From contig JALGZO010000511.1 of the NCBI GenBank assembly GCA_025774865.1, positions 1 through 6,683 on the forward strand: 6,683 nucleotides of DNA, read 5' to 3'. Of the stretch, positions 5,076 to 6,683 are shown in pieces. Both the position numbers and the translations under genes were made by a program. The notes under the pieces were generated by a model, which was not told the DNA's origin, ran no database searches, and saw only the letters and a program-made list of their open reading frames with translations. This stretch comes from a bacterium (GTDB lineage: Bacteria > ARS69). Position 1 is the first letter of the stretch. Each line of letters opens with the position of its first letter.

Positions 5076-6008
5076 CTAGTCCGCCTGCGCCTCGAGCCAG
5101 CGCTCCGCGTCGATGGCGGCCATACAGCCGGTCCCCGCCGCCGTTACCGCTTGGCGGTACACGTGATCCGCGACGTCGCCGCTGGCGAAGACGCCCTCGA
5201 CATTCGTCATGGTGCCCGATCCATCAAGCTTCACGTATCCGTTCTCGTCCAGGTCGATCTGCCCCTCGACGAGCGATGTATTCGGAATGTGTCCGATCGC
5301 GACGAAGAGCCCCTTCACGGGGAGCTCGGTCGTCTCGTTCGTCTTGACGTTTCTGAGGCTGACCGCGCGCACCGTGCCGTCGTCGCCCCCGAGAACGTCG
5401 TCGACCACGGTGTCCCAGTGTATTTCGACCTTGTCGTTCTTGAAGGCGCGGTCCTGCATGATCCGGGACGCCCGCAATTGGTCACGGCGGTGAATCAGGT
5501 GCACTTTGGTCGCGAACTTCGTCAAGAACGTGGCCTCTTCCAAGGCCGTGTCGCCGCCGCCCACCACGGCGATCTCCTCACCGCGGAAGAAGAAGCCGTC
5601 GCACGTCGCGCAAGTCGACACGCCGTGCCCCAGGAGCTTTTTCTCGTTGGGTAGGCCGAGCATGCGCGCAGTGGCGCCGGTCGAGAGAATCAGCACGTCG
5701 CACGTCAGCTCACCCTCGCCGAAAACGATACGGAAGGGGCGGCTCGACAGATCGAGCGAGACGACGTCGCCCTGCACGAATCTCGTTCCGAAGCGCTCGG
5801 CCTGGCCCCGGAAGTTCTGCATCAGCTCGGGGCCCATGATGCCGTCGGGGAAGCCCGGATAGTTCTCGACGTCGGTGGTGGTCGTCAGCTGTCCGCCGGC
5901 TTGGACGCCCTCGATGACGACGGGCTCCAGGTTGGCCCTCGCCGTATAGACGGCGGCGGTGAGTCCGGCTGGGCCCGACCCGATGATCGCGACTCGCACG
6001 TGTTCCAT
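5076..6008 (-). CDS. trxB: Thioredoxin reductase (NADPH, FAD-dependent)
   Basis: A 310-residue low-molecular-weight thioredoxin reductase, which passes electrons from NADPH through FAD and a redox disulfide to thioredoxin in the cytoplasm. The FAD dinucleotide motif GSGPAG is at 10-15. The redox pair CATC is C133/C136 (E. coli C135/C138). The NADPH domain has GGGDTA at 150-155 and HRRDQLRA at 173-180, the latter marking NADPH rather than NADH preference. The FAD-binding GDVAD is at 277-281, followed by RQAVTAAGTGCMAA at 285-298. Length and all motifs are canonical. The ATG at 6008 has GGAG nine bases upstream, partly inside a 14-bp palindrome. It is probably the first gene of the operon continuing into pepA, MBL, nrdR and M16. 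The link with nrdR is meaningful because thioredoxin is a common reductant of ribonucleotide reductase. No thioredoxin gene is in the window. Confidence 0.97.
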   Translation of the reverse strand: MEHVRVAIIGSGPAGLTAAVYTARANLEPVVIEGVQAGGQLTTTTDVENYPGFPDGIMGPELMQNFRGQAERFGTRFVQGDVVSLDLSSRPFRIVFGEGELTCDVLILSTGATARMLGLPNEKKLLGHGVSTCATCDGFFFRGEEIAVVGGGDTALEEATFLTKFATKVHLIHRRDQLRASRIMQDRAFKNDKVEIHWDTVVDDVLGGDDGTVRAVSLRNVKTNETTELPVKGLFVAIGHIPNTSLVEGQIDLDENGYVKLDGSGTMTNVEGVFASGDVADHVYRQAVTAAGTGCMAAIDAERWLEAQAD

Positions 6009-6066: not shown

Positions 6067-6162
6067 GACATCGCCGTGTCCTTGGATGCGCGGCGACGGT
6101 CGGGGATTCGTGAGGCAGGCCCCTGGTGTGCCGTCCGGAAGGTCATGATCCGTTCCGCGATT

Positions 6163-6272
6163 CGCCCGAGACCGGGGATCCCCTCGCGCGCCGTTACTGC
6201 TCGGCTCGCGAAGGGAATTGTAGCTCGCCTGCGCTGCGCTGACGCGTTCGAGGGGATCCCCGGCCTCGGGCG
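6163..6272 (-). repeat. Structured palindromic repeat, copy A (110 nt)
   Basis: Read on the minus strand, 24-nt arms (6272-6249 and 6186-6163) pair over their whole length, with 23 Watson-Crick pairs and one G-U. They enclose a 62-nt core. The core starts AACGCGTCAGCGCAGCGCA, then GGCGAGC (6229-6223), a 13-nt loop, GCGAGCC (6209-6203), and ends GAGCAGTAACGGCGCG. GGCGAGC and GCGAGCC pair as GGC/GCC and GC/GC around a tandem G-A mismatch. Blocks 6254-6227 and 6209-6181 match copy B at 28/28 and 27/29 positions. The outer arms contain GGGGATCCCC and bear no resemblance to those of B. Strand is assigned from the shared core orientation. It could be a non-coding RNA, an untranslated-region structure, or a foldback mobile element; no known family is recognised. 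Confidence 0.85.
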
Positions 6273-6284
6273 GCTCGGCGTCCC

Positions 6285-6318
6285 CGGCCGGGAGCGGGAT
6301 GCGAGTTCCTCCCGGTCG
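6285..6318. repeat. Hairpin in the spacer between repeat copies A and B
   Basis: CGGCCGGGAG (6285-6294) and CTCCCGGTCG (6309-6318) form a 10-bp stem with a 14-nt loop. The single non-Watson-Crick pair is G-U on the plus strand (g6287 with t6316). No T-run follows on either strand, so a plain intrinsic terminator is unlikely. It shares no clear sequence with the repeat core. Confidence 0.5.
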
Positions 6319-6328
6319 TCGAGCGTCA

Positions 6329-6374
6329 CTCCTGCGCCTGCTGGGTGCCGCGACGGGTTCGAGGGCATCAGGAG
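6329..6374 (-). repeat. Possible degenerate third copy of the repeat (5' half only)
   Basis: On the minus strand, 6368-6351 reads ATGCCCTCGAACCCGTCG, which matches the arm/core boundary of copy A with two substitutions over about 17 positions. It sits in the 5' half of an imperfect hairpin with its own arms: CTCCTG (6374-6369) with CAGGAG (6334-6329), plus an inner GCC/GGC. The interior is only about 25 nt, and the GCGAGCC block and 3' core are absent. It may be a decayed or minimal member, or chance similarity in GC-rich DNA. Confidence 0.35.
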
Positions 6375-6422
6375 CGCCGTCGCTGGCCGGCATGACCGAG
6401 GTCAGGTCGCCATCCGGAGGAG

Positions 6423-6545
6423 CCGGGCTTCGCGAGGTGGGCGGGTACCCTCGAACGCGTCAGCGCAGCGCAGGCTCGCTTCGATGTTTCTGCGAGCCGA
6501 GCAGCAACGGCGGGCGAGGGTACCCGCCTACCTCGCGAAGCCCGG
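6423..6545 (+). repeat. Structured palindromic repeat, copy B (123 nt), opposite orientation to copy A
   Basis: Read on the plus strand, 31-nt arms (6423-6453 and 6515-6545) pair completely, with 30 Watson-Crick pairs and one G-U. They enclose a 61-nt core. The core starts with the same 22 nt as copy A, then a GGCTCGC/GCGAGCC stem (6473-6479 with 6492-6498, 7 perfect pairs) closed by a 12-nt loop, and ends GAGCAGCAACGGCGGG. The arms include GGGTACCC and TTCGCGAGGTGGGC, unrelated to the arms of copy A except for the last six bases (CCCTCG/CGAGGG). The copy ends 36 bp beyond the ferredoxin stop, so its stem, read on the minus strand, could also shape the 3' end of that transcript. No target-site duplication is evident at its edges. 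Confidence 0.85.
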
Positions 6546-6581
6546 ACTCAAGGGGCAGTCCCGGCTCGGGAGACAGCACAC

Positions 6582-6683
6582 TTAGGAGGATGCGCTGGCC
6601 GCTTCGGCCTCGTTCGCCCCGTCGTCGCCGATCGCCTCGACCGGGCAGCTCTCGAGCGCCTCCTCGCAGGCGCCCCGCTCGGG
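6582..6683 (-). CDS. Small 4Fe-4S (or 3Fe-4S) ferredoxin, C-terminal 33 residues only
   Basis: The frame is open from the right edge to a TAA at 6584-6582 and encodes the last 33 residues of a protein whose start lies outside the window. ACEEALESCPVEAI followed by an acidic, Ala-rich tail (GDDGANEAEAASASS) is the typical C-terminal helix and last cluster cysteine (CP) of single-cluster bacterial ferredoxins of about 60-80 residues. C13 of the fragment should be the final cluster ligand; C6 may be a structural cysteine. The CxxCxxC part is not visible, so cluster type cannot be decided. It is transcribed in the same direction as trxB but is separated from it by 573 bp of hairpin-rich DNA, and trxB has its own candidate promoter, so a shared transcript is doubtful. 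Confidence 0.8.
   Translation of the reverse strand, partial: PERGACEEALESCPVEAIGDDGANEAEAASASS

Follow-up and report, generated by a model that had tools for sequence, protein, structure and literature searches.

The integron attC site is an imperfect hairpin with a variable part and conserved outer ends, and bcr1 of Bacillus cereus is a repeat that combines the features of a mobile element with a foldable or transcribed RNA. Mobile-element features and folding or transcribed RNA also come together in the Bordetella repeat at bprJ (PMC3110155). Most REPs are situated downstream of genes, in gaps flanked by convergent or unidirectional neighbours (PMC3733652). Among transposons, ISRe46/TnRErm46 of the IS481 family is flanked by NCTAGN direct repeats, carries the inverted repeat TGTTGCGGGTCATGACGTTG and reuses a stop codon at its insertion site (PMC6794481). 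CTAG repeats may, in addition, come from IS5-group elements (PMC9241763).

The window analysed here is a bacterial contig of 6,683 nt (C515) from a 4.7 Mb genome in 785 contigs, which is 92.65% complete with 8.3% contamination. Between positions 6163 and 6545 it carries two hairpins that, like REP, BIME and REPIN elements including heterodimers, form an inverted pair with a common core and variable stem and loop at gene 3' ends (PMC3733652). Unlike these elements, however, the hairpins are 110-123 nt long instead of 20-40 nt, and their core is central and not terminal. As in attC sites, the hairpin is imperfect and has a variable part, whereas the conserved part is here the centre, and no cassette array or integrase context is seen in the window. 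The mobile features resemble those of the bcr1 and bprJ repeats; this likeness concerns their general features, and no Rfam match links them. With the IS481 family, and with MITEs that might derive from it, the element shares TGT...ACA ends, a CTAG target and a flanking CTAG that supplies a stop codon (PMC6794481); it differs in having no transposase, another inverted-repeat sequence and internal twin hairpins. The hairpins are the halves, or inner parts, of one small mobile DNA element and not a stand-alone RNA repeat. This element is very probably a non-autonomous MITE-like transposon that inserts at CTAG and whose TGT inverted-repeat ends enclose inverted hairpins with a conserved core. The family with its CTAG specificity is apparently undescribed, but ordinary in its basic nature.

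Twin hairpins inside a CTAG-flanked element

Hairpin B occupies 6163-6272 on the minus strand (24-position stem, conserved core and apical loop) and hairpin A occupies 6423-6545 on the plus strand (31-position stem, conserved core and apical hairpin), exactly where the initial annotation of this DNA had placed them. Both are supported by folding and by a covariance model, which matches hairpin B at 6158-6276. The hairpins share an identical block of 28 nt, CCCTCGAACGCGTCAGCGCAGCGCAGGC, which is the longest that they have in common, and a second block of 29 nt with two differences, both as first described. The stem lengths of 24 and 31 likewise hold, whereas the description of the stems as fully paired is true only if G.U is counted, as each stem has one non-Watson-Crick position, a G.T on the core strand. 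Folding as DNA gives z scores of -10.2 and -6.5 for the two hairpins relative to shuffled sequences, with no shuffle as good, and folding as RNA gives -12.9 and -8.3. These scores, the number of core copies in the genome and the covariation of the stems rule out a chance origin of the hairpins. The core was said to belong to no recognised family, and an Rfam search indeed returns no match at the gathering score. The hit to MIR1151 (40 bits versus a cut-off of 90) reflects chance similarity with a GC-rich hairpin.

Two other statements of the initial annotation have to be revised. The stems had been considered private to each copy, but type A arms recur at full length with 85-90% identity in at least eight loci according to BLAST in the host genome. 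The arms are thus of two types, A and B, and the variation within each type consists mostly of paired changes. Moreover, the repeat had been set apart from MITE-type repeats, while the hairpins in fact sit in an element that has terminal inverted repeats and CTAG flanks and for which a sister genus offers an empty site, features by which a MITE is defined. A core inside a known mobile element had been named as a finding that would speak against the original reading; the core does lie in a mobile element, but in an undescribed one.

Alignment of the loci reveals the order CTAG, terminal repeat (family consensus TGTTCCGTCTCGAAAGTC), hairpin B (minus), a spacer of ~140 nt, hairpin A (plus), inverted end and CTAG. 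The full-length family element measures ~430-450 nt. Like a MITE, it is short, non-coding and multi-copy and has terminal inverted repeats, which here are imperfect. In the window, the element spans 6127-6580 (454 nt) and is flanked by CTGG and CTTAG. Alignment and sequence place the left terminal inverted repeat, TGTGCCGTCCGGAAGGTC, at 6127-6144 on the plus strand, directly after the target-site-like CTGG (6123-6126), which corresponds to the CTAG consensus of the other copies. The spacer between the hairpins covers 6273-6422 (plus). The right terminal inverted repeat at 6562-6580 is degenerate and reads TGTGCTGTCTCCCGAGCCG on the minus strand. It is followed by the target-site-like CTTAG at 6581-6585, which includes the TAA stop codon (6582-6584, minus) of an upstream ferredoxin gene. 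The 3' end of this gene is present at 6582-6683 (minus, partial); its Fer4_13 match is weak and below the cut-off, and it matches the ferredoxin C-terminus in relatives. Downstream of the element, a thioredoxin reductase (trxB-like) gene lies at 5076-6008 on the minus strand. With at most three mismatches allowed, the genome yields 15 sites that combine the terminal repeat with CTAG, compared with 0 for the reversed control and 0 in four relatives. CTAG is present at both element ends in two copies (C406 and C381), where duplication of the palindromic CTAG is indistinguishable from a longer inverted repeat.

Family copies and insertion at CTAG

Copies were gathered by searches of the host genome. 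The 19-nt core has 21 matches there (0 for the reversed control), a BLAST search with the 123 nt of hairpin A gives 34 matches at E <= 0.001, and a covariance model built on 18 hairpins recovers 22 hairpins (E <= 1e-11) on the strand that was modelled. These 22 hairpins are spread over ~20 loci, in addition to deleted remnants. The description of a multi-copy repeat with a conserved centre in variable paired stems is thus upheld by the copy search and by covariation. The covariance model finds 0 hairpins in four other genomes of the phylum, all of the same family, and DNA searches of relatives also find no copy. Exact core matches elsewhere (18 hits in genome contigs and 5 in viral contigs) come without the second block and are attributed to chance. 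A plasmid search gave no matches, and five phage matches, short (41-49 nt, E = 3e-3) and located in genes for terminase or for a hypothetical protein, are likewise taken as chance.

The ferredoxin-trxB gap measures 159 nt without the element in the sister genus G004, compared with 573 nt here. The ferredoxin gene of G004 ends in GGCTAG, and its stop codon lies in GACGGCTAGGACG, which provides an unoccupied CTAG at the position where the element begins in the window. In G002, ferredoxin adjoins trxB and the element is absent. As a sequence comparison between genera and not within a strain pair, the empty site of G004 strongly supports insertion, short of proving a duplication. CTAG is very rare in the host: 104 kb of contigs picked without regard to the element contain it 29 times, whereas seven other palindromic tetramers occur 216-1204 times. 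Ten of these CTAG positions are at stop codons, 14 are intergenic and 5 are in genes. Because the scarce CTAG is largely confined to stop codons and intergenic DNA, the element gathers at gene 3' ends. Of the 12 resolved insertion loci, 8 are flanked by convergent genes and the other four lie between tandem genes; among 84 background gene pairs, only 9 are convergent (p = 6e-5, with gene calls from a simple codon-usage finder). At C729, both convergent genes stop at the TAG of a flanking CTAG. CTAG targeting combined with the loss of in-gene insertions makes a position between convergent genes expected even without a regulatory role. The family is a clear case of a rare target that directs transposon insertion to stop codons between convergent genes.

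An IS481-type transposase acting in trans may have moved the element, although CTAG can also serve as a target of IS5-group elements (PMC9241763). Upon insertion at CTAG, the flanking CTAG would supply or preserve the stop codon and do little harm at gene 3' ends. The IS481-type DDE transposase profile NF033577 has only sub-threshold hits in the genome, which are fragments without the ends of the element. PF00665 yields an IS3/IS481-like fragment and a broken element, both also without these ends, and the profiles PF01609 and PF01797 have no match in the host genome. Beyond the known loci, a looser end pattern finds only in-gene matches at about the control rate. For the transposase families searched, this incomplete and fragmented genome yielded no autonomous parent that has these ends, and we infer a parent transposon. 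Contig C702 carries a broken rve-type transposase gene beside an IS630-like transposase reading frame, which suggests nested insertion sequences.

Core conservation, stem pairing and competing explanations

The core blocks have a mean identity between copies of 100% and 98% in hairpin A and of 97-98% in hairpin B, compared with 78% in the spacer, 75% in the left end and 82-89% in the loop between the core blocks (C704, which has no hairpin B, is left out). Variation is seen in just 1 of 38 core columns but in 228 of the 341 remaining ones (p ~1e-15 if the columns are taken as independent). With a core at ~98-100% next to a spacer and terminal repeat at 75-78%, something must maintain the core. 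Since the loop is more variable than the core blocks that surround it, whole-hairpin gene conversion explains this conservation poorly. Finding copies partly by their core biases the estimate of conservation. A mutated core would, however, have been caught by the search for ends or by BLAST with the 123 nt of hairpin A, and the altered copies that were seen carry deletions instead.

In the stems, both partners have changed in 15 of the 37 pairs and 97.6% of the cells are paired, which none of 500 shuffles equals; a slid control comes nowhere near the observed covariation measures. The covariation reflects in part a single difference between types A and B, yet it is also present within A and within B. 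Half-changes were counted on the aligned stems. On the core strand of the A stems, they amount to 10 G.U and 0 A.C (p = 0.002 on the assumption of independence, which does not fully hold because some are shared by descent), whereas the B stems have 9 G.U and 6 A.C; the signal is thus small overall and weak in B. If selection acts on an RNA fold, G.U half-changes are expected over A.C on the transcribed strand. Furthermore, C>T and G>A changes on the same strand stand at 18:7 in hairpin A but at 20:37 in the spacer, and these opposite ratios argue against a mutation bias of the whole element. The stems, above all those of type B, also exhibit clustered compensated changes, C-G to G-C transversions and matched length changes. 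Selection on the RNA fold and template switching may both act on the stems. With ~20 natural copies of one hairpin, the family makes selection on an RNA fold separable from stem repair by template switching.

The arms might be paired purely by mutation, with template switching copying arm onto arm and no selection on folding. Template switching is known to create and maintain hairpins (PMC8794818), and the clustered compensated changes, the transversions and the matched length changes point to it. As the only process, we nevertheless consider it somewhat unlikely: it leaves unexplained why the core is near-invariant, unpaired positions included, next to a variable loop, arms, spacer and ends, and why G.U and A.C half-changes in the A stems stand at 10:0. 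A free-standing family of structured non-coding RNAs that multiplied by duplication, and to which the terminal repeats are incidental, would agree with the strong covariation, with a core conserved above ends and spacer, with half-changes in the A stems that are all G.U on one strand and with the divergent C>T to G>A ratios of hairpin A and spacer. However, the same ends and CTAG-like flanks recur at most loci with readable boundaries, neither a promoter nor an Rfam family was found, and the hairpins are absent from four genomes of the same family; such an independent RNA family is unlikely.

A location between convergent genes and beside stop codons would also suit a bidirectional transcription terminator exapted at these sites. 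Yet CTAG targeting is enough to predict the position, the genes are in tandem at 4 of the 12 sites, and the hairpins have no following T-run; a search for intrinsic terminators or promoters found none, which makes a terminator decidedly improbable. In a REP/REPIN-like element, a tyrosine (Y1/RAYT) transposase would recognise the hairpins as single-stranded DNA. The inverted pairs, whose core is common and whose stems differ, are reminiscent of REP heterodimers, and REPs are likewise found downstream of genes in convergent or unidirectional arrangement (PMC3733652). Despite this resemblance, we regard a REP/REPIN-like nature as highly implausible, given the length of the hairpins, true terminal inverted repeats that lie outside of them, the absence of a terminal GTAG/CGTC tag and the lack of a Y1 transposase match (PF01797) in the genome.

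For the MITE-like transposon that we favour, a structured-RNA role of the core is plausible, with weak evidence from G.U on the core strand. The core hairpin might be kept because it acts in folded form, most likely as RNA from the core strand at transcript 3' ends, with mRNA protection, processing and protein binding as candidate roles, while arm-to-arm template switching would help the stems to stay paired. Only tentatively, and with considerable doubt, do we suggest that the core hairpin could be a functional RNA that was spread by the CTAG transposon and kept at 3' ends after the transposon ends had decayed. As such a mobile 3'-UTR module, the two opposite hairpins would give either convergent gene one in core orientation.

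Variant loci and remnants

C618 retains hairpin A only, and joined or deleted hairpins are found on C60, C122, C235, C639 and C703. The hairpin at C122:93-342 is a fusion of half B and half A, which fits a deletion between inverted copies or a mis-assembly. C477, C235 and C639 look like strain variants of the loci C60, C729 and C501, respectively, with hairpins partly or wholly deleted, for which mis-assembly is another possible origin.

The element ends vary as well. Directly after the element at L167:346-375 (contig C713) lies the palindrome CTAG-TGTCCCGTCTCGCGACGGGACA-CTAG, that is, two terminal repeats back to back and empty inside. At C729:404 and C235:10364 (one locus in two variants) and at C703:1613, the right end has no terminal repeat and instead reads CACCAGGCA(A/GT) followed by CTAG. 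At these two independent loci, either an alternative right end may have been used or the same deletion may have recurred. At C704 (~13050-13330), a different repeat of ~150 nt (GCGCCGGGTACGCGGGTTGAAACATCGCGCCGGTGAGAGGGCCGGTGCC...) is present in two tandem copies beside hairpin A, in the place normally taken by hairpin B.
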